This document shows positions 41,497-50,812 of a stretch of 50,812 nt of DNA, piece by piece; the stretch's first letter is position 1; each line of letters begins with the position of its first letter. The position numbers and the translations under genes are program-made. A model generated the notes under the pieces. The model saw only the letters and a list, made by a program, of their open reading frames with translations. It had not been told where the DNA came from and searched no databases. Source of the DNA: Thermodesulfovibrionia bacterium (GTDB lineage: Bacteria; Nitrospirota; Thermodesulfovibrionia; UBA6902; BMS3Bbin08). The stretch is from assembly GCA_030694425.1 (NCBI GenBank), contig JAUXYI010000047.1, forward strand, positions 1 to 50,812. The letters run 5' to 3'.

Positions 41497-42252
41497 CTAC
41501 TTATTTTTTCCCTTCTTCTTAAAGTAACGTCTTACAGCTAAAGTTGCACCCCCAGTAATAAAGAGAATTGAACTCAATGGTTCAGGTGTAACAGCCATTT
41601 TACCCTGAATACTGCCAGAAGCATCGTTAGAGAAAGCATAGCCACCACCAGAAGTACCGGAGGTAAAGGTAAAGTCCATACCGAGATTTAAATAACCATT
41701 AGTCTGATAACTTGCCTGTAATTCTTGTATGTATTGAGAGCCGTTAGCAGTAAAAGTTATATTAGTTAGATTGGCAGTAGTATGATCCCATAATGGATTT
41801 AGTTGAGTACCAAAGGAGCCGTCAGTGATGATAAAATTGTTCAGTAGTGCAGAAAGATAGGTGGTTGTTCCGTCTGAAATCGTGAAGCTGACCGGACCAG
41901 TGACGCCATTAGCCCCGGTTCCTCCATTATTAGTATTTCCAAAAATTAAATTTTGATTGTAAGTATCGTTATAAAGATTGCCGATTGTAATTACTGCACC
42001 TGTAATAAGGTCACTCCCTTCACCGAAGTAGCTCCCACTTGCATAATTACCGCCTGTGATATTCCATGTGTTGAAAGTGAGCTTATATTTATTTGCATTA
42101 CTTCCGCCCACACCATCGTTATAAGAAAAATTAGCTACGTAATCCAAATAAGGCAGGTAAGGATACGCTGCTAAAACATTGCTTGATAAAAGGAGAATGC
42201 TCGTTAGCAAAATAAAAACACCTGCTAAAAATTTCTTATGGCTTTTTTTCAT
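41497..42252 (-). CDS. PEP-CTERM sorting-domain protein
   Basis: The protein has 251 residues. Signal peptide ends near 'SSNVLAAYP'. The C-terminus 'VTPEPLSSILFITGGATLAV' followed by RRYFKKKGKNK is a PEP-CTERM tail (PEP motif, hydrophobic helix, basic residues). The body is Gly/Asn/Thr-rich beta sequence ('FGNTNNGGTGANGVTGPVSF'). It is probably an extracellular matrix component placed by an exosortase not in this window. AAGGAG lies ahead of the ATG. Confidence 0.8.
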   Translation of the reverse strand: MKKSHKKFLAGVFILLTSILLLSSNVLAAYPYLPYLDYVANFSYNDGVGGSNANKYKLTFNTWNITGGNYASGSYFGEGSDLITGAVITIGNLYNDTYNQNLIFGNTNNGGTGANGVTGPVSFTISDGTTTYLSALLNNFIITDGSFGTQLNPLWDHTTANLTNITFTANGSQYIQELQASYQTNGYLNLGMDFTFTSGTSGGGYAFSNDASGSIQGKMAVTPEPLSSILFITGGATLAVRRYFKKKGKNK

Positions 42253-42633
42253 TTTTGACTCTCCTTAATTTTTTAGCTAAAGTTGTTTGTTGTTTTTTAT
42301 CTAAAATTTCTTTTCAAGTTAATTAAACTATAAACTAAAAAAATATCAATGTCAAGCTTTTTTTCTTTTATAATTGCATAGTTGCGCAAGTACACAAGTA
42401 GTTAACAATTTCTTATTAGGAAAAATTATGCCATTTAAATCCTTCGGGAAAATGAACCCCTCTTATATTCATCACAATGATTTAAATAGCAATTCTCATG
42501 CCAAAATGCAACTCCCTGATTTTATGTAACAATTAAAAACAAGCATATGTTAAATTATTAAAAGTGTAAAGCATTTATATGATAAACAATAAAATTTTAA
42601 TAAAATGTAAAAAATTCCGACACAATTTTAACC
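42253..42633. other. Intergenic region, no gene seen
   Basis: About 380 bases of AT-rich DNA between the divergent PEP-CTERM gene and arsR. It should hold the PEP-CTERM promoter, which could not be placed with confidence. Confidence 0.4.
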
Positions 42634-42677
42634 TTGACAAACATATAAAAATATAATAATATTTGCATATATGCAAA
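42634..42677 (+). promoter_or_regulatory. Promoter and palindromic operator over the arsR start codon
   Basis: TTGACA (42634-42639) is 17 bases from TAATAT (42657-42662). The perfect palindrome TTTGCATATATGCAAA (42662-42677) begins at the -10 and includes the ATG of arsR (42671-42673). Repressor binding there would block both transcription start and the first codon. Confidence 0.6.
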
Positions 42678-43015
42678 AACAGATTGCATCGCGCATAGAA
42701 ATTTTAAAGGTATCTGCTCATCCTGTCAGAATAGCCATCTTAGAGGAGCTATCAAAAGGCGTAAAGTGTGTCAGCGATTTTGAAGAATTCCTTGATATAA
42801 GCCAGCCGAATATTTCCCAGCACCTTGCAGCGCTCAGGCACGCCGGGATTGTTGATTATTTTATTGATGGAAGATTAAGGTGCTATTTTTTAAAGAATCC
42901 TTTAATCATTGACCTCTTAGAAATCCTTAAAAAAGATTATCCGCATGAACTCCCGGGCCCTGAATGCTGTCCCGCCACTAAAAAAGGCACATATCCTGGT
43001 GAAAGGAGAAGATAA
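42671..43015 (+). CDS. ArsR/SmtB family repressor
   Basis: The protein has 114 residues. A winged HTH is clear: 'KVSAHPVRIAILEELSKG', 'CVSDFEEFLDISQPNISQHL', 'AALRHAGIVDYFIDGRLRCY'. Cys residues in 'GVKCVSD' and 'PECCPATK' could bind a metal(loid) or react with organometals or persulfides. The stop overlaps the next gene's ATG (TAATG), so the operon is tightly coupled. It likely represses itself through the palindrome at 42662-42677. Confidence 0.9.
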   Translation: MQKQIASRIEILKVSAHPVRIAILEELSKGVKCVSDFEEFLDISQPNISQHLAALRHAGIVDYFIDGRLRCYFLKNPLIIDLLEILKKDYPHELPGPECCPATKKGTYPGERRR

Positions 43016-43269
43016 TGAAGAAAAATACCATTAAGCTTTATGTCAATGATGCGATGGGCAAACGCTGACAGCAGAATATGCAGTCCGCCTGGAAGGCAAA
43101 GGATGAACTTGGCGTTGAGGTTATCGTTATTAAAAAAACATCAAAGGAATATAACATGGAAAAAGACCCTCTGCCGTGTCCGTCTATTGTGCTGAACGGC
43201 AAGGTGCTGGCAAATAACGGCACCATCACCTACGAAGAATTAAAGGCGGAAATACAGAAACAAAAATAA
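43015..43269 (+). CDS. Thioredoxin-like probable selenoprotein with in-frame UGA
   Basis: ATG at 43015 has AAAGGAG upstream and overlaps the arsR stop. The frame reads 'MKKNTIKLYVNDAMGKR', then TGA at 43066-43068, then 'QQNMQSAWKAKDELGVEVIV' and 'IVLNGKVLANNGTITYEELK', 84 residues in total. Both sides together make a complete thioredoxin-like fold: beta strand, active-site loop, helix, strand, cis-Pro region ('LPCPSIV'), strand, helix. UGA is where the redox Cys of such proteins sits. A weak bSECIS-like hairpin (43083-43104) with G at the second loop position lies 22 bases after the UGA. Alternative: a nonsense mutation. The likely family is SaoT-like thioredoxin-like selenoprotein (from memory). 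Confidence 0.6.
43083..43104 (+). promoter_or_regulatory. Candidate bSECIS hairpin for UGA 43066
   Basis: GUCC-GCC pairs with GGC-AAA-GGAU around the loop UGGAA (43090-43094). G is the second loop base, 22 bases after the UGA, within the range known for bacterial SECIS elements. The stem is short with a three-base bulge, so it is weak support. Confidence 0.35.
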
Positions 43270-43281
43270 AAGGGGAATGTT

Positions 43282-44070
43282 ATGGAAATATCTTTTTTAA
43301 TTACACTCGTTCTACTCGGACTCGGCGGAGGTTTTTTATCAGGATTGCTTGGACTTGGCGGCGCTATTTTTATGATACCTCTTCTTCTTTATGTTCCGCC
43401 GTTTTTAGGCGTTGGACATCTTGACATGAAGCAAGTAGCAGCAGTCAGCATGGTGCAGGTGCTTTCAGCGTCTTTATCCGGACTTATTGTCCATCACAAA
43501 AACCGTTTTGTCAGCAAATCCCTCCTCATCTACATGGGGGCTTTTAATGCTATCGGCAACCTCGCGGGTTCTATATTCTCCAAATATACTAAAAGCGCAT
43601 TCCTGTTAGCCATATTTGCTTCTATGGCTGTAATTGCTGCGGGAGTCATGTTTATTCCAAAAAGAGAACAGGGCGAAAATATCTCGCCTGATGAACTTCA
43701 ATATAATAAACCGCTTGCATCATTTATAAGTCTCCTGATAGGTTCTTTTGGCGGCATGGTGGGAGCGCCGGGCGCATTTATATACATACCGGCTATGATA
43801 TATGTTTTGAACATTCCAACCCGTATCGTGATAGGCAGCACATTAGGAATTGTTTTTTTAGGCGCAATTATGGGCAGTATCGGCAAGATGGCAACAGGGC
43901 AGATTATCTGGCCCTATGCGGCAGCTCTTGTTATAGGCACAGTGCCAGGCGCACAAGTAGGCGGAAAGGTAAGTAAAAAGGTTAATACCAAATACCTGCG
44001 GCTTGCCATTGCTGTAATTATCGCAATAACCGGTCTCAGAATGTGGTATCAAGTATTGACAGGCCGTTAA
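43282..44070 (+). CDS. TSUP (TauE/SafE) family membrane exporter
   Basis: The protein has 262 residues with seven to eight membrane helices in two related halves: 'LGLGGGFLSGLLGLGGAIFM' and 'LIGSFGGMVGAPGAFIYIPA'. This is the TSUP signature (PF01925). Members move sulfite, sulfonates, thiosulfate or other sulfur compounds. It is 12 bases after the thioredoxin-like gene in the arsR operon, so it probably exports or imports the operon's sulfur or organometal product. The ribosome site is weak (GGGG). Confidence 0.85.
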   Translation: MEISFLITLVLLGLGGGFLSGLLGLGGAIFMIPLLLYVPPFLGVGHLDMKQVAAVSMVQVLSASLSGLIVHHKNRFVSKSLLIYMGAFNAIGNLAGSIFSKYTKSAFLLAIFASMAVIAAGVMFIPKREQGENISPDELQYNKPLASFISLLIGSFGGMVGAPGAFIYIPAMIYVLNIPTRIVIGSTLGIVFLGAIMGSIGKMATGQIIWPYAAALVIGTVPGAQVGGKVSKKVNTKYLRLAIAVIIAITGLRMWYQVLTGR

Positions 44071-44099
44071 TTTTAATTAAAAGGAAAGGTAGGTGTAAT

Positions 44100-44522
44100 A
44101 TGGAAAAGGTAACGAAAAACGTATCAGTAATGTGTTTTCATGATGAGTTGTGTCAGGTTTATAATGCGCTTATGACATCATTAAGTCTTTTAAGAGAAGG
44201 TTCTAATGTCACAATATTTTTTGGCTCGCGCGGCGTGAATGCGATTCACAAGGATAAGGTAAAAGACCTTAAATGCATGCCTGATCAGCCAAAAGAAATA
44301 GGTGATGCGGTGATGAAAAGGATGGAAGAGATGAACCTTCCGACAGTGGAAGACCTGTTTGTTATGCTGCACATGGAAGGTGCAAGGCTGCTTGCCTGCC
44401 CTTTAAATGTTCCACTTTTTGATATGAAAAAGAACGACTTTGTGGAAGGGGTTGAAATCGCAAACCCCGCTACATATTATAAAGAAGTGGTTGTGAAGGC
44501 TGACATGAACCTGACATTTTAA
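44100..44522 (+). CDS. DsrE-like sulfur-relay family protein
   Basis: The protein has 140 residues from ATG 44100 (AAGGAAAGGTAGG upstream). 'NVSVMCFHDELCQVYNALMT', 'EGSNVTIFFGSRGVNAIHKD', and 'LLACPLNVPLFDMKKNDFVE' fit the DsrE/peroxiredoxin-like fold (PF02635/PF13686). Cys near 'ARLLACPLN' is the conserved reactive position. It may carry sulfur as persulfide. Last gene of the arsR operon. Confidence 0.75.
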   Translation: MEKVTKNVSVMCFHDELCQVYNALMTSLSLLREGSNVTIFFGSRGVNAIHKDKVKDLKCMPDQPKEIGDAVMKRMEEMNLPTVEDLFVMLHMEGARLLACPLNVPLFDMKKNDFVEGVEIANPATYYKEVVVKADMNLTF

Positions 44523-44545
44523 GTTTGGAGTGTTAAGTTTGGAAG

Positions 44546-44576
44546 TTGCAAATTTAAGAATATTAGAATATTTTAT
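44546..44576 (+). promoter_or_regulatory. Putative ArsR operator ahead of the membrane protein gene
   Basis: TTGCAAATTT is followed by a motif (44563-44576) matching 12 of 14 bases of TTAGAATATTCTAA. It shares the 'TTGCAAATTT' left part with the operators at 45632 and 48197. Confidence 0.5.
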
Positions 44577-44605
44577 ATAATAAACTTAGAAACAGGAGGT
44601 TTACC

Positions 44606-45127
44606 ATGGAAAATTTGATTTACATCCTGTTGCTCATCATTCACAACATTGCACTTGTGGGATGTGCAGCAGCCCCATTTTATAATTTAAGATTGGTTAA
44701 CCAGCGTGCACAGTTTGGCAAAAAACTTTATTACCAACTGGATAAAGTAGTAGAGGATACAATTCAGGGATTAGAGCCTTATTGCTGGACATTTATTATC
44801 CTGCTCTTTATTACCGGGTTTGGTTTCTCGGCTACTTACTACGCATTCCATGGACAGTTGAAGGAATTTAATCCAACTGTATTTTCTGCATTTATACTTA
44901 AACATATCTTTGTATTAGGTATGGTGGGAATTGCCTTTTATATTTCATTCTTTATCAACCCTAAAATAAGAGAGATATTCTCCAAGTTTTCTCCTGATGC
45001 CGCTCCTCAGGAAGAAATAGCAAATAAATTTTTCAGCCTCAGAGCAAAAAGAAAACAGTTGTGTAAAATTTGTTTTGTCTTTGCAATGTTGATTTTAATA
45101 GTTAGTCCTGTGTTGAGGTTTTATTAA
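44606..45127 (+). CDS. Four-helix inner membrane protein of unknown function
   Basis: The protein has 173 residues. Four hydrophobic helices are at about 3-25, 57-80, 98-118 and 150-170. A conserved-looking loop 'VEDTIQGLEPYCWTF' lies before helix 2. Cys residues near helices 1, 2 and 4 might bind metal. CopD-like or cytochrome-like folds have similar patterns but no family is certain. AGGAGG precedes the ATG. It is probably controlled by the second ArsR. Confidence 0.55.
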   Translation: MENLIYILLLIIHNIALVGCAAAPFYNLRLVNQRAQFGKKLYYQLDKVVEDTIQGLEPYCWTFIILLFITGFGFSATYYAFHGQLKEFNPTVFSAFILKHIFVLGMVGIAFYISFFINPKIREIFSKFSPDAAPQEEIANKFFSLRAKRKQLCKICFVFAMLILIVSPVLRFY

Positions 45128-45162
45128 TTTTCATGATTAATGGAGGTATGAAAATACACCCT

Positions 45163-45281
45163 CCCCTTCATCCCCTCCCGTCAAGGGAGGGGAGATGTTG
45201 GAGTGCTGCCCATCAACTGAAGGAGAGTCATCTTATAAATCCCCTCTCCCTTGGCGGGAGAGGGTTAGGGTGAGGGGGATT
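45163..45281. repeat. CCCCTCCC/GGGAGGGG inverted repeats
   Basis: 'atcccctcccgtcaagggag' and 'cccctctcccttggcgggag' are two hairpin copies of a G/C-run repeat. The last part reaches into the leader of the second arsR. Confidence 0.65.
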
Positions 45282-45292
45282 AAGGAATCATT

Positions 45293-45631
45293 ATGAGCAA
45301 GAAGATTTACGAAATACATGCTGACATATGTAAGACCTTAGGGAATGCTAAAAGGATAGAAATCCTTAGCGCTCTTGAAAACAGGGAATTAACCGTTAGT
45401 GAGCTTGTAAATATTCTTAGTATATCTCCTGCAAATGTTTCTCAGCACCTTGCTATCATGAAACAGAAGGGTATCCTTAAATCAAGAAGAAATGGGAACA
45501 ATATTTTCTACAGGGTTTCCAATGCAAAGGTGATAAAGGCTTGTAGTCTTATGAGAGAAGTGCTGCTTGAGAGGTTTGAGGAAGGGCAGGAAATAGCAAG
45601 GAAATTTTCTAAAGCAAAAAAATTTTTTTAA
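45293..45631 (+). CDS. ArsR family repressor (second)
   Basis: The protein has 112 residues: 'ICKTLGNAKRIEILSALENR', 'LTVSELVNILSISPANVSQH', 'LAIMKQKGILKSRRNGNNIF' is the ArsR winged HTH. There is only a Cys pair ('DICKTLG', 'VIKACSLM') as possible sensor. It likely binds TTAGAATATTCTAA, which lies just after it (45648) and ahead of other cluster genes. GAGGGGGATTAAGG precedes the ATG at some distance. Confidence 0.9.
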   Translation: MSKKIYEIHADICKTLGNAKRIEILSALENRELTVSELVNILSISPANVSQHLAIMKQKGILKSRRNGNNIFYRVSNAKVIKACSLMREVLLERFEEGQEIARKFSKAKKFF

Positions 45632-45661
45632 AAAGTATTTGCAAATTTTAGAATATTCTAA
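45632..45661 (+). promoter_or_regulatory. Palindromic operator upstream of the RND exporter
   Basis: TTAGAATATTCTAA (45648-45661) is a perfect palindrome; with its left flank the 30-base block is identical to 48197-48226. TTGCAA at 45639-45644 could be the -35, putting the operator between -35 and -10. Confidence 0.7.
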
Positions 45662-45689
45662 GATTCTATATTTGACTAAAATATAAAGA

Positions 45690-45768
45690 TTGCTTCGCTC
45701 CGATGTGTCGGGGCTCGGAATGACATAGACAGGTATTGTCATTCCGAGCGTAGCGAGGAATCTCGTTT
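45690..45768. repeat. Palindromic 'GGAATGACA...CATTCCGAG' repeat
   Basis: 'attgcttcgctccgatgtgt' opens one arm and 'cattccgagcgtagcgagga' the other. Same family as 16983-17062. Confidence 0.65.
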
Positions 45769-45796
45769 TTAAAAACAAGCTCAGAGGAGAATTAAA

Positions 45797-48133
45797 ATGA
45801 AAAAATTTTCTCTCGTTAATTTCTCTGTAAACCACCCACGATTAATTGTATCCTTAGCAGTGATTATTACTGTTGCCTTCATGACTCAGTTTCCCAAAAT
45901 AACGACAGATACAAACCCCAAAAATATGCTTCCCAAGACATCTGATGTTAGAGTCTGGAATGATGAAGTGGAGAAAACCTTTAGCCTCTACGAAGATATG
46001 ATTGTCGTAGGGATAGAGAATGAAAAAGGTGTTCTTAATAAAGACACCCTTGGAAAAATTCAAAGGATAACCGATGAGATTTTAAAAATCAAAGGTGTTG
46101 CAGCAAGAGATGTAAACAGCTTTCCAACTATTACCAATGTGACAGCCGAAGAAGGGATTTTAAAAATAGCGCCCCTTATGACGCAGACTCCAAAAACTGA
46201 TGAGGAGATAAAAACCCTGCAAAAGATGCTTTTTGAAAATCCTCTTTTTATTGACCGTATCATCTCAAAGGACGGAAAGACCACTGCTATTTATGTGCCT
46301 CTTGAAAAGGGCGCGAATGGAAAAGTTATTGCAGACCAGCTAAGGGAGATAGTAAAAGAAGAAAAGGGTGATGAAAAATATTATATTGCAGGAGACCCTG
46401 TGGCAAGAGATACTTTTGGAGCGGAGATGTTCAAATTAATGGGTATCTTCTCTCCAATTTCAGGGATGATAATGTTTATCGCCATTTACCTTATGTTCAG
46501 AAACCTTTCACTTGCTATTTCAATGATGATGGTGGCAATGATAAGCATTATCTGTAGCATGGGACTTTTAATAGGGCTCGGCTTTCCCATACATATAATG
46601 AGCTCCATGAGCCCTGTGTTTTTAATGGCAATAGCAACTGACAGTATCCATATATTTAATGAATTTTATTTTAGATACCGCGAAAAAAGAGATAAAAAAG
46701 CTGCAATTATTGAGACGATGAATGCGGTTGGCAGGCCTGTTCGTTACACAGCGCTTGCAACTGCGGTTGGCTTTGGAGTCCTTATATTTATGCATATCAT
46801 TCCTGTCAGGGTTTTTGGTTTCGGGATCGCATTTGGCACAATCGCATTAAGACTCCTGAGTTTTAGTTTTATCCCTGCGGTTTTAACATTTATAAAAGAG
46901 GAGAAGATAAGTAAAGCCTCGTCTCACGAAGACATTGAATTAAGCAGGACAGCAAGGGTGCTAAGAGCCCTTGGAGGTTTTGGTACCCATAGCCCTAAAG
47001 CTACTGTTTTCGTTGGCTTAGTAATCCTTGTTATCGCAATTATAGGGACAACAAAGATAGTGGTTAATAACAATATGGTTGAATGGTTCAAGAAAAATAG
47101 CGATGTAAGGGTGGCAGATACTGTGATGAACAGAGCTCTCGGCGGCACATCTTTAGGATATGTTGTAGCTGTAGCAAAAGAAGAAGACTTCATAAAAACA
47201 CCTGAGGCAATGAGATATATTGAATCACTTCAGAGAGAATTAGAAAAACTTTCTGTTGTCGGCAAGACCAGTTCTGTTGCGGACTATGTAAAGAGGATAA
47301 ATAAGGTTTTGCATGATGATGACCCGAAGTATGATTCCGTGCCTGATAATAAAGAGACGATAGGGCAGTATATCTTTTTATTTTCAATGTCAGCAAAACC
47401 ATCTGATTTAGACAATGTCGTTGATTATCCTTTTCAAAAGGCAAATATCTGGGTTCAGCTTAAGACATGGGATGCCCAGGCAATGAGAAGCGTTATTAAA
47501 GTAGTTGAAGAGTATAAAAAATTCCATCCGATTAATATGGAATTTAAACCTGCAGGCATTGCCTATTTTAATCTTGTGTGGAATGATGCGGTGCTCTGGG
47601 ATATGCTTAGAGGTTTCATAGTTGCCCTGATTGTAGTATTTGTGATACTCGTATTTAACTTTCGTTCAATAAAATGGGCAATTGTGGGTTATGCGCCATT
47701 GCTTTTCACTATACTACTCATTTATGGAGTTGTTGGATTTATCGGCAAAGATTTTGACATGCCAATTTCTGTGCTTTCATGCCTGTCACTTGGAATGGCA
47801 GTTGACTTTGCGATCCATTTTATAAGCAGATTCAAACAGAGATTAGCCGAAATTTCGGGAACACTCAAGACTCCAAACTCGGAACTCATAACCGATTCTC
47901 TATTATGGACTGTTGCAAGACCCGGCAAGGGGATAATGCGTAACGCAGTCCTTTTTGCCTCAGCATTCTCGGTTATGATGTTTGCGCCTCTCACCCCGTA
48001 TATCACAGTTGGCGCATTTATTGTAAGCATGATGCTCTTAAGTTCACTGATGACAATAATATATCTTCCAGCGCTTATAGTTTTACTAAAAGGTTGGCTG
48101 TTTAAATGCCCATGCGAGTTTCAAACAAAATAA
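45797..48133 (+). CDS. RND superfamily (MMPL-type) exporter
   Basis: The protein has 778 residues. Twelve helices are arranged in two halves, each a single helix, a large periplasmic loop and five helices, as in MMPL/hydrophobe-amphiphile pumps. Typical pieces are 'FPKITTDTNPKNMLPK', 'LMAIATDSIHIFNEFYFRYR', 'NAVGRPVRYTALATAVGFGV', 'SCLSLGMAVDFAIHFISRFK'. Proton-translocating Asp residues occur in helix 4 ('ATDSIH') and helix 10 ('AVDFAIH'). An in-frame insert 'ISGTLKTPNSELI' (about 47848-47893) looks like dispersed repeat DNA in a cytoplasmic loop. The operator lies upstream. Substrate unknown. Confidence 0.88.
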   Translation: MKKFSLVNFSVNHPRLIVSLAVIITVAFMTQFPKITTDTNPKNMLPKTSDVRVWNDEVEKTFSLYEDMIVVGIENEKGVLNKDTLGKIQRITDEILKIKGVAARDVNSFPTITNVTAEEGILKIAPLMTQTPKTDEEIKTLQKMLFENPLFIDRIISKDGKTTAIYVPLEKGANGKVIADQLREIVKEEKGDEKYYIAGDPVARDTFGAEMFKLMGIFSPISGMIMFIAIYLMFRNLSLAISMMMVAMISIICSMGLLIGLGFPIHIMSSMSPVFLMAIATDSIHIFNEFYFRYREKRDKKAAIIETMNAVGRPVRYTALATAVGFGVLIFMHIIPVRVFGFGIAFGTIALRLLSFSFIPAVLTFIKEEKISKASSHEDIELSRTARVLRALGGFGTHSPKATVFVGLVILVIAIIGTTKIVVNNNMVEWFKKNSDVRVADTVMNRALGGTSLGYVVAVAKEEDFIKTPEAMRYIESLQRELEKLSVVGKTSSVADYVKRINKVLHDDDPKYDSVPDNKETIGQYIFLFSMSAKPSDLDNVVDYPFQKANIWVQLKTWDAQAMRSVIKVVEEYKKFHPINMEFKPAGIAYFNLVWNDAVLWDMLRGFIVALIVVFVILVFNFRSIKWAIVGYAPLLFTILLIYGVVGFIGKDFDMPISVLSCLSLGMAVDFAIHFISRFKQRLAEISGTLKTPNSELITDSLLWTVARPGKGIMRNAVLFASAFSVMMFAPLTPYITVGAFIVSMMLLSSLMTIIYLPALIVLLKGWLFKCPCEFQTK

Positions 48134-48196
48134 TAAGAAATAAAAGGATGGATTGCAAATCTTTGAATAGTTAATTTTAAGGTAAAAAATTTTTTG

Positions 48197-48226
48197 AAAG
48201 TATTTGCAAATTTTAGAATATTCTAA
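48197..48226 (+). promoter_or_regulatory. Second identical copy of the palindromic operator
   Basis: Identical over 30 bases to 45632-45661, including TTAGAATATTCTAA at 48213-48226. It lies 39 bases before the start of the secreted-protein gene at 48265. Confidence 0.7.
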
Positions 48227-48264
48227 ACTATTAATATCTCAAATAAATTTAAGGAGGATAAAAA

Positions 48265-48708
48265 ATGAATGTAAAAAGGATATTGAAAAAACTCTTAATT
48301 CCGATGCTTGTGTTTTCACTTTTTTCTCCGATTGTTTTCACAAGTATGGCTATGCAGAGAGGAGGAGTGGAGGAATTAAAAGAACGAATAGATATAACAA
48401 ATAAAAAACGAGTTACCCCTAAGGAGATAAAGAGGTTTGAAGAAAGTCTTCAGAGTTATTTCTTTGAAATTGTGGAACTTGATGTTATTGAAAGGGTGAT
48501 GAAAGCAGTTGACCTTAAAGAAATTACCCCTGGAGATGCTCTTATAGTGATAGTCCTTGTAAAACTCTCTAAAAAGCCTGAACAAGAGATAATAAAGATG
48601 AAGAAAGAAGGGAAGAACTGGACAGAAATTGTTAATGCAGTAGGTGTAAAACTAAAAGATGTAGTTAAAGAAGTCAAGGAATTTCAGAAAATGTCAGGGT
48701 GTGCGTAA
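48265..48708 (+). CDS. Secreted helical protein of unknown function
   Basis: The protein has 147 residues. The signal peptide ends near 'SPIVFTSMA'. The mature part is helical and charged: 'VEELKERIDITNKKRVTPKE', then 'PGDALIVIVLVKLSKKPEQE' and 'MKKEGKNWTEIVNAVGVKLK'. It ends in Cys-Ala ('KMSGCA'), which could bind metal or react. No family was recognised. AAGGAGG precedes the ATG. It is preceded by the 14-base operator. Confidence 0.65.
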   Translation: MNVKRILKKLLIPMLVFSLFSPIVFTSMAMQRGGVEELKERIDITNKKRVTPKEIKRFEESLQSYFFEIVELDVIERVMKAVDLKEITPGDALIVIVLVKLSKKPEQEIIKMKKEGKNWTEIVNAVGVKLKDVVKEVKEFQKMSGCA

Positions 48709-48782
48709 ATATAACACGCACTTAGTGAGATGATGACTTAGAGCGGATATGAAAAGTAAAAAATTACGAAGGGGGTTTTTAT

Positions 48783-49298
48783 ATGAAAAGAGGATTAAAG
48801 ATTTTACTTGGACTGTTTTTTATGATAGCAATGGCATTTTCAACCTATGCCAATGACTCAGAATTAGTCACAAAAATAGATGCGGTAGTAAGCCAGGGGC
48901 CGGAGAATGGGAATTATTTTGTAGGAGCTAACGATGTTTATATGTGGTTGAAAATAAAGAAGACTGATTTTGTAGTAGTTGATGTCAGGATTGGCGAAAA
49001 TGCCATTAATGCATATAAGGCAGCGCATATTCCAGGAGCTATCTATATCCCATACAATGAGATGTTTAAGCCTGAAAATCTTCAGAAGCTTCCAAAAGAT
49101 AAAAAAATAATTTTTGTATGTCATATGGGTGTGACCGAGGCATTACTTATAGTGCCTATGAGGATGCTTGGATATGATGCATATGGGATGCTTTTAGGAA
49201 TGGCGGGCTGGCAGAAGGATTACCCTACTGCTGAGTATGTGCAGGGATTAATAGATTCTCCAAAGACAAAGAATTATCCACTGGAAAGTGAAAAGTAA
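48783..49298 (+). CDS. Secreted rhodanese-like protein
   Basis: The protein has 171 residues. Signal peptide 'ILLGLFFMIAMAFSTYA'. The rhodanese domain has 'DFVVVDVRIGENAINAYKAA', 'HIPGAIYIPYNEMF', then the loop 'KKIIFVCHMGVTEALLIVPM' with catalytic Cys, and 'LGMAGWQKDYPT'. It would carry persulfide sulfur in the periplasm. It lies next to a YeeE/YedE transporter, a usual pairing for thiosulfate or sulfur uptake. Ribosome site: GAAGGGGG. Confidence 0.88.
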   Translation: MKRGLKILLGLFFMIAMAFSTYANDSELVTKIDAVVSQGPENGNYFVGANDVYMWLKIKKTDFVVVDVRIGENAINAYKAAHIPGAIYIPYNEMFKPENLQKLPKDKKIIFVCHMGVTEALLIVPMRMLGYDAYGMLLGMAGWQKDYPTAEYVQGLIDSPKTKNYPLESEK

Positions 49299-49385
49299 AT
49301 TAAAATTAAAAATAAAAAATCATCCCGAATAGTCGGGATACATTTTGCATTTTAAATTTTAATTTCTTATTAACGGGGAGGTTGT
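49299..49385. other. Short intergenic hairpin region
   Basis: 'atcccgaatagtcgggat' (about 49322-49339) is a stem with a 4-base loop. No ORF. Confidence 0.5.
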
Positions 49386-50777
49386 ATGAAGAGAATCTTT
49401 ACAAAACCATGGTCTTTTGTATGGGGCGGATTTTTAGTTGGTCTTGCAGAGGTAATTTATTTCCTTAAATATGAGACGCCGATACCGATAACCACAGGAC
49501 TTGCAAAGATGTTTGGCTCTATAGAGGAAAATATTACAAAGACCAACTATATCACAAGACTCTATGATGCAGATATCCACTGGATTATAATCGGGATCTT
49601 AGCCGGGGCATTTCTTGTAACAATCCTTGAGAGAGAACATAAGGCATGGGCCAAGTATCCTTTTAGCATCGCAGTCCTTTCATTTTTAGGCGGAGCAACC
49701 TTTGGGCTTGGCACAAGGATTGCACAGGGATGCACTACATGGCACTATTTGGGTGGGATCTCGGCTATGAGCCTTACATCTATAGTTGTGGCAATTGTGA
49801 GCATTCCATTTGCATTCCTTGCATTTCTGTTTATGGCAAAACTTAATGTTGCTGGTTTTATGAAACACCAGGAGACACACGCAACTGTCAAACACTGTGT
49901 TGAACTTGAATACCCAACTGAAATTTTATGTTATGACCCAAAATATAAACCATATAAAGACCCTTTAAGAATAATCTTGACGGCATTCCTGTTTATATTA
50001 TTAATATCAACCTTCTGGACAGCATTTAAAGGAGAGACATCTAACAGTATAGGACGACTGCCATGGACAGAAATATCTCTTAAGACGCTGGTTGGTTTTC
50101 TGCTCGGGTTTGGCATTGCAAAAACAGGATTTGGAACAGAATGTGCTGTTATGGCGCCGCATTCACTTCATATGCCGAAAATTTTTTTTGATTCTATGAA
50201 GGTTGCAAAAATAACCCAGACAATGTTTACAGGACTCTTGCCTTTTACAGCATTGCTTATAGCTATTCTTATGCTCAATATAACAATACTTATTACCTGG
50301 ATATTTTTTGGATGGGATATTCCTGTTGTTGTAGAAGCTGGTAAGTATAAGTGGGGGTTTCATTGGGGACATCTTATTGGAGGTCCTCTTCTCGGCATAG
50401 GCGCTGTGCTTATGATAGGCTGCGAGATAAGGTCATATGCAAGGACAGCAATGGGATATCTGACGGGTTTAGCTGCACTTCCAGGTTTTTTTGTTGGATA
50501 TCTCCCTTTTACACTTTATAGAGAAAAATTTGAAGAGCTATTTTTTGCTAAAGGAATTATTGAAGAAAAGAATATTCTTGAACTTTTACCAGATAACCCT
50601 TATATCCAATATGGGTTTGCATTTCTTTATACAGGGATTCTTATAGCGCTTCTTATATGGGCAATAAGAAAAGGTTCGCAGATGGTAAAGGTAACCCCTA
50701 AAGAATATCTTACCGACTCTACAGATGAAATATTCCTAAAAGGACTTCATGAAGAAAAAATAGGAGGTGTACAATAA
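49386..50777 (+). CDS. YeeE/YedE family sulfur transport protein
   Basis: The protein has 463 residues with about ten membrane segments and two sulf_transp repeats. The conserved Cys motifs are 'RIAQGCTTWHYLGG', 'GFGTECAVMAPHS' and 'MLIGCEIRSYARTAM'-type sequence ('VLMIGCEIRSYARTAMGYLT'). In the thiosulfate carrier TsuA such cysteines relay thiosulfate. The adjacent rhodanese fits thiosulfate or persulfide handling. Homologues are also linked to selenium metabolism (YedE). Ribosome site GGGGAGG; next gene overlaps its stop by one base. Confidence 0.88.
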   Translation: MKRIFTKPWSFVWGGFLVGLAEVIYFLKYETPIPITTGLAKMFGSIEENITKTNYITRLYDADIHWIIIGILAGAFLVTILEREHKAWAKYPFSIAVLSFLGGATFGLGTRIAQGCTTWHYLGGISAMSLTSIVVAIVSIPFAFLAFLFMAKLNVAGFMKHQETHATVKHCVELEYPTEILCYDPKYKPYKDPLRIILTAFLFILLISTFWTAFKGETSNSIGRLPWTEISLKTLVGFLLGFGIAKTGFGTECAVMAPHSLHMPKIFFDSMKVAKITQTMFTGLLPFTALLIAILMLNITILITWIFFGWDIPVVVEAGKYKWGFHWGHLIGGPLLGIGAVLMIGCEIRSYARTAMGYLTGLAALPGFFVGYLPFTLYREKFEELFFAKGIIEEKNILELLPDNPYIQYGFAFLYTGILIALLIWAIRKGSQMVKVTPKEYLTDSTDEIFLKGLHEEKIGGVQ

Positions 50778-50812
50778 TGAAAACATTTTTTGACAGGAGG
50801 TTTAAAATGATA
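50777..50812 (+). CDS. Start of a gene cut by the window end
   Basis: ATG at 50777 (TAGGAGG upstream) opens a frame 'MKTFFDRRFKMI'. An in-frame ATG at 50807 has its own ribosome site AGGAGG (50795-50800), so the real start may be 50807. Nothing can be said on function. Confidence 0.4.
   Translation, partial: MKTFFDRRFKMI

Follow-up and report, generated by a model that had tools for sequence, protein, structure and literature searches.

A group of winged-helix repressors with the ArsR fold, comprising SqrR, BigR, YgaV, sHdrR and SoxR, responds to sulfane sulfur. BigR/SqrR persulfide sensors (sequence similarity network cluster 4) let go of DNA when treated with persulfides. In PMC10509353, the persulfide-switch cysteines of BigR/SqrR-type sensors are placed in helices 2 and 5, and a short stretch of helix 4 is described as setting operator specificity in the ArsR family. 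In PMC9774250, the deduced SqrR site is given as ATTC-N8-GAAT, and the operator at ygaV lies over the promoter. Here we describe a candidate regulator-operator pair in a 50,812-nucleotide stretch of a Thermodesulfovibrionia bacterium of the phylum Nitrospirota (assembly GCA_030694425.1, contig JAUXYI010000047.1, positions 1 to 50,812), referred to below as the window. The regulator, ArsR2, is a 112-residue ArsR/SmtB-type protein encoded at 45293-45631, on the forward strand like all window genes named below; it is the second of two such regulators, the first being encoded by arsR1 (42671-43015; HTH_5, 54 bits). The candidate operator is the 14-bp palindrome TTAGAATATTCTAA, through which ArsR2, most likely a repressor, very probably switches a sulfur-handling gene cluster; a sulfur species would release it.

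ArsR2 has the same fold as the known sulfane-sulfur repressors and stands in a similar neighbourhood, with a rhodanese and sulfur transporters and, in relatives, sulfide:quinone oxidoreductase; its candidate operator lies over a promoter, as at ygaV. The ArsR2-linked motif differs from the SqrR site, however, and ArsR2 lacks the BigR/SqrR cysteine pair, carrying S26 and L92 at those positions. That the palindrome is the operator of the neighbouring ArsR repressor is a well-supported prediction involving an ordinary mechanism; the ArsR-type switch is familiar, but the likely sensor differs from known sulfur sensors. A literature search found nothing on the exact 14-mer, and in the literature searched, mostly at listing level, no regulator-operator pair for sulfur genes of uncultured Nitrospirota was found described; the locus offers a defined candidate for one, testable in a tube.

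The palindrome and its association with arsR2

Exact copies of TTAGAATATTCTAA, which has no strand of its own, lie at 45648-45661 (site 1, 16 bp past the arsR2 stop and ahead of an RND exporter gene) and at 48213-48226 (site 2, ahead of a gene for a secreted protein), and a degenerate form, TTAGAATATTTTAT, lies at 44563-44576 (site 3, ahead of a membrane-protein gene). The distances to the respective gene starts are 135 bp (45797), 38 bp (48265) and 29 bp (44606), in agreement with the initial annotation, which had placed the three sites ahead of these genes. Direct reading likewise confirms its report of a shared 16-base left flank, the 30-mer AAAGTATTTGCAAATTTTAGAATATTCTAA being identical at 45632-45661 and 48197-48226, and its weaker copy at 44546-44576, TTGCAAATTTAAGAATATTAGAATATTTTAT, is a real but degenerate relative whose best palindrome register (44563-44576) has two mismatches.

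In the 2.4-Mb genome the exact palindrome occurs twice, both times in this cluster, against 0.02-0.05 copies expected genome-wide. Mismatched forms are no commoner than chance: with up to three mismatches the window holds 11 matches against 7.8 expected, and with up to two the genome holds 28 against 30 for a reversed-letter control; what counts is therefore the exact form, together with its context. For site 3, the density of such matches across the genome predicts 0.001 in the 83-bp gap where it lies. A 27-mer of palindrome plus flank has two exact genome copies and matches nothing else within three mismatches (control, 0); the palindrome with its flank is therefore not a dispersed repeat, and the scattering that the initial annotation had named as a possible refutation is ruled out. 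A wider regulon drawn from the mismatch search was also rejected, the off-cluster matches looking like chance. Allowing two mismatches, 25 matches fall outside the cluster, and context was inspected for 23 of them; twenty lie inside open reading frames (14) or between genes (6), none beside a sulfur gene recognisable from the protein starts, with no family search made. The noteworthy exception is C3:24474, close upstream of a third arsR gene described below.

Conservation was followed in 81 related genomes and in a phylum sample of 395. Among the 81, 14 exact copies of the 14-mer are spread over 12 genomes, always in an arsR2 cluster: 12 are no more than 30 bp from arsR2, one is 2.6 kb off (window site 2) and one 4.7 kb off ahead of arsR1 (G019), and a backward-letter control of equal composition occurs once each in six of these genomes. 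Homologs of arsR2 (E<=1e-20) are present in 33 of the 81, including all 12 palindrome genomes; within the same order, the exact site is found in 11 of 16 genomes with such a homolog and in 0 of 31 without. The phylum sample yields 13 exact copies in 11 genomes, 12 of them at arsR2 clusters, and the control in 10 genomes. If two mismatches are allowed, all but one of the 15 same-order arsR2 genes (69-100% identical) have a copy no more than 100 bp away (10 copies exact), as does one of 20 more distant genes (G047 only), counts that leave out row L070; in the order of G047, that genome is the only one of four with the palindrome. The nearest named records with arsR2 are Nitrospirota metagenome-assembled genomes, one labelled Thermodesulfovibrionia.

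The position of the copies is also constrained. Within the order they usually lie 16-27 bp past arsR2, ahead of the RND gene or, in G036, as an exact palindrome ahead of the orthologous membrane-protein gene; in G012 the copy is 81 bp past arsR2 and ahead of arsR1, and in G005, G021 and G039 it is 11 bp upstream of arsR2 itself. When 21 sites are aligned and oriented to the downstream gene, 10 of 14 columns are invariant. This co-occurrence with arsR2, and the placement at its end or start, fits the prediction for an operator of ArsR2 and supports the earlier suggestion that the ArsR encoded at 45293 runs a second regulon.

Promoter-like matches overlap all three window sites in a promoter scan, the best being TTAAGA-16-TATAAT (44554-44581), in and over which site 3 lies. 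In G005, G021 and G039 the right half of the palindrome doubles as the second hexamer in TTGACA-17-TATTCT upstream of arsR2, and in G012 and G019 the palindrome takes up the spacer in TTGACA-17-TAAAAT upstream of arsR1 (hexamers picked by eye in these five genomes). A palindrome over a promoter near the regulator gene is the arrangement of an ArsR/SmtB-type operator, and since the sites overlap promoter-like sequence, ArsR2 is most likely a repressor.

The identical left flank of sites 1 and 2 is best explained by local copying. The segment 45603-45661 (forward strand), comprising the end of arsR2 and site 1, reappears at 48173-48226; local alignment of 45603-45689 with 48173-48255 scores 90, where the highest of 1000 resampled pairs reaches 62, the copied segment includes the last arsR2 codons, and none of the seven other loci found to have the secreted-protein gene has the palindrome before it. 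Site 2 is thus a probable copy of the arsR2 end with its operator; if so, a recent operator duplication lets the growth of a regulon be read from DNA. A true dispersed repeat, TCATTCCGAGCGTAGCGAGGAATCT (17 genome copies with up to two mismatches), lies at 45739-45763, between site 1 and the RND start, and may explain the 135-bp spacing there; the palindrome-RND distance is 30-54 bp in six relatives (G006, G011, G022, G023, G027 and G029), 110 bp in G031 and 236 bp in G019.

ArsR2 and its candidate sensor

ArsR2, the likely palindrome binder, has the ArsR-type winged helix-turn-helix domain of the ArsR/SmtB family, scoring 55.1 bits against HTH_5 (PF01022; cut-off 22) and 81.1 bits against HTH_metalloreg (NF033788; cut-off 55). 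Its AlphaFold2 model has a predicted local distance difference test score of 90 and matches ArsR folds with Z up to 15.3. The protein carries Cys13 in helix 1, Cys84 in helix 5 and Pro46 at the first turn of the recognition helix. Cys13 is present in all 35 full-length orthologs and all 100 further homologs, and Cys84 in 33 and 89 of these, respectively. We infer that Cys13 is the sensing residue; as far as the sequences indicate, the arrangement is unusual for a sulfur-linked ArsR. S26 aligns with the helix-2 cysteine of BigR, and a gapless alignment of residues 1-93 to SqrR 16-108 puts SqrR positions 41 and 107, which we take to be its switch cysteines, at S26 and L92. Against the NCBIfam BigR model (NF040642) ArsR2 scores 54.4 bits, below the cut-off of 155. 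The best sequence match in the PDB is Rv0081 of Mycobacterium tuberculosis (E 1.2e-11), which belongs to sequence similarity network cluster 3 of PMC10509353 and has the same fold (Z 14.2), but carries F and L where ArsR2 has Cys13 and Cys84 and has different neighbour genes.

Use of the palindrome co-varies with recognition-helix residue 46, which is P, A, T or Q in users and mostly K in non-users. Among the 15 orthologs from the same order, seven carry P, five A and three T; Q is found in G047 and its relative G050, and K in the remaining 18. In the 100 further homologs the residue is K in 92, M in six, P in one and A in one; the stretches fetched, about 300 bp on each side, hold no palindrome copy closer than two mismatches, and one K case has a two-mismatch copy. 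Because the P and A cases in this set lack the palindrome, residue 46 is not sufficient; on the tree, the palindrome label and K46 each require two changes, so few independent events that the link is suggestive and no proof. No widely shared palindrome emerged from 89 upstream stretches of the Lys46 branch (the best exact dyad, in 10 of 89, consists of T- or A-runs), and the case for an operator change is therefore built on the missing palindrome and not on an identified replacement. Part of these stretches carry a strong promoter, TTGACCTTT ... AATAGAATA, with TTGACCTTT in 31 of the 89. With many variants sequenced on both sides, residue 46 provides a natural series for specificity. At six loci (L054, L055, L058, L061, L062 and L065), Lys46-type homologs with a strong TTGAC-type promoter adjoin a six-gene set, which presumably encodes an Rnf complex.

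From the site, its conservation beside arsR2, the promoter overlap, the sulfur neighbours and the conservation of Cys13, all seen in the sequence, a mechanism can be proposed in which binding, repression, operon structure, ligand and the role of Cys13 are predicted. An ArsR2 dimer would sit on TTAGAATATTCTAA over the core promoter of the RND-exporter gene and likewise over the promoter of the secreted-protein, rhodanese and YeeE genes; it would bind the promoter of the membrane-protein/arsR2 pair more weakly and so feed back on its own expression. Modification of ArsR2 by a reduced or zero-valent sulfur species, most likely at the invariant Cys13 and perhaps with Cys84, would abolish DNA binding and switch on the sulfur-handling genes. 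A broader evolutionary proposal is tentative: a widespread Nitrospirota ArsR family may sense sulfur through the invariant helix-1 Cys13, often with Cys84, unlike the BigR/SqrR pair; one same-order branch may have moved to a new 14-bp operator with a change of residue 46 from Lys to Pro, Ala or Thr; and here the regulon may have grown by copying the operator-bearing arsR2 end before another gene. If this is true, ArsR control linked to sulfur has arisen with different cysteine arrangements.

Several observations weigh against the proposed mechanism. The promoter-like matches are just mildly above chance (32 versus 22.7 in shuffled sequence, sd 6.0). The same-order genome G025 has no palindrome near arsR2, its one-mismatch copy lying 5.8 kb off before an RND-like gene. 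The one exact copy of the phylum sample outside an arsR2 cluster, in G376 (L092:1501-1535, C106), lies 20 bp before a regulator gene, which we take to be GbsR/MarR-like, on another contig than the arsR2 homolog of that genome. Cys84 is absent from two of 35 orthologs and 11 of 100 homologs, including G047, which has the exact palindrome, so the two cysteines do not form a strict pair throughout. Finally, some arsR2 homologs elsewhere adjoin Rnf-like genes instead of sulfur genes, which leaves the sulfur ligand uncertain for the whole ArsR2 family.

Alternative roles of the palindrome and its regulator

The arsR1 promoters carry a different palindrome-like motif, with consensus half ATGCAAATATT, in 10 of 12 usable genomes; in the window the operator-like motif is ATAAAAATATAATAATATTTGCAT at 42645-42668 (unstranded), symmetric at 8 of 11 positions. 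Both the motif and its half-site profile were aligned by eye. Since arsR1 promoters carry this other motif, describing the palindrome regulon as separate from the first ArsR regulon is fair and largely stands; it does not hold in G012 and G019, where the arsR1 promoter itself carries the ArsR2-type palindrome and the two regulators are therefore apparently wired together. A perfect 16-bp palindrome, TTTGCATATATGCAAA, also lies over the arsR1 start codon, at 42662-42677.

A composite operator, with ArsR2 on the palindrome and ArsR1 on an overlapping site that uses the left flank, both controlling the RND gene, has a modest probability. The left flank TTGCAAAT resembles the ArsR1 half-site at several RND-type sites, a likeness that, with the G012/G019 case, keeps joint control in consideration. 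Under the ArsR1 half-site profile, the flank ranks among the top 1% of random 11-mers that end in TT at 6 of 14 RND-, membrane- and secreted-gene sites, with 8 of 14 scores no higher than 0.0102 and 9 of 14 below 0.05; of the four sites upstream of arsR2 itself, only the G047 flank scores so (0.028). The likeness was, however, noticed post hoc with a profile aligned by eye, and the flank, which reads TTGCA at most RND sites, may belong to a promoter. Moreover, the identity of window sites 1 and 2 is partly due to copying, and flank scores are weak in G023, G029, G031 and G036 (RND) and in G025.

A role of ArsR2 in sensing metals or metalloids, which its family name would suggest, is unlikely. 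Its closest structural matches include CzrA, SmtB and CadC, with which it shares the fold, and it satisfies the NCBIfam general metalloregulator model, but the known metal ligands are not seen where they could be mapped. Helix 3 of the AlphaFold2 model (residues 35-42, VSELVNIL) has no Cys-X-Cys, and N77 and K79 stand in place of His or Asp at CzrA 84 and 86, presumably its helix-5 ligand positions (gapless alignment of 10-80 to 17-87, the second half of the CzrA site being mapped without certainty). No metal transport gene lies in the cluster.

Quite improbable is an operator of ArsR1 or another regulator, with arsR2 a mere neighbour. ArsR1 was found in 19 of 20 genomes checked, and both the ArsR2-type palindrome in the arsR1 promoters of G012 and G019 and the half-site-like flank would suit this reading; yet G004, G055 and G077, which have ArsR1 but only distant ArsR2 homologs, lack the palindrome, and the ArsR1 promoters of 10 other genomes carry the different motif. 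In G005, G021, G039 and G047 the palindrome lies 11-24 bp before arsR2, and the sequence retrieved around it contains no arsR1 ortholog; three of these genomes have arsR1 on a different contig, and none was found in G021. A transcription terminator, RNA hairpin or mobile-element footprint is scarcely credible: although the palindrome lies 16-27 bp past the arsR2 stop in many genomes, its stem is A/T-rich without a terminator match there, it also occurs upstream of arsR2 and arsR1 starts, and the genome has two copies only. An RNA element was also rejected, 42000-50812 giving no Rfam match.

The sulfur gene cluster

In order, the window carries arsR1, a possible selenoprotein, a TauE/SafE-type exporter (43282-44070; PF01925, 152.1 bits), a DsrE-family protein (44100-44522; PF13686, 57.9 bits), site 3, a 173-residue membrane protein (44606-45127) that would join the regulon through that site and has a weak CopD-like match below cut-off, arsR2, site 1, the RND exporter of HAE3/MMPL type (45797-48133; MMPL, 127.6 bits; TIGR00921, 189.9 bits, below the cut-off of 351.9), site 2, a 147-residue protein of no family with a secretion-signal-like start (48265-48708), a rhodanese-domain protein (48783-49298; PF00581, 42.5 bits) and a YeeE/YedE-type sulfur transporter (49386-50777; PF04143, 83.0 bits). 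Rhodaneses or other sulfurtransferases with sulfur transporters are the neighbourhood of BigR/SqrR-like regulators. A profile search of the window proteins found no metal gene in the cluster, whose theme, judged from gene content, is sulfur, not metal. Of the "metal/sulfur regulon" first proposed, the sulfur half holds (TauE, DsrE, rhodanese, YeeE), and the metal half is unsupported, with no metal gene in the cluster and the metal-ligand positions that could be mapped unoccupied.

In relatives the RND exporter is the most constant palindrome target. It is surrounded by DsrE-/DsrH-family proteins, YeeE-type transporters, a LolA-like protein and a sulfide:quinone oxidoreductase that matches the mitochondrial enzyme at E 1.8e-102. 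In G005, G039 and G047 the palindrome ahead of arsR2 is followed by rhodanese and YeeE-type genes and a molybdopterin oxidoreductase; the contig of G021 ends soon past arsR2.

Directly after arsR1, 43015-43269 holds a frame with one in-frame TGA (MKKNTIKLYVNDAMGKRUQQN...), weakly thioredoxin-like; it is plausibly a selenoprotein, since the genome has a SelA gene (E 9e-162). Elsewhere in the genome, a third arsR gene (L072:9625-9988, equivalent to G000:C3:24124-24487) has a related perfect palindrome, TTAGTATATACTAA (match C3:24474), 23 bp upstream, differing from the ArsR2 operator candidate by two letters. The genes beside it are, we presume, hydrogenase-like, and the pair is possibly an insulated sister system.

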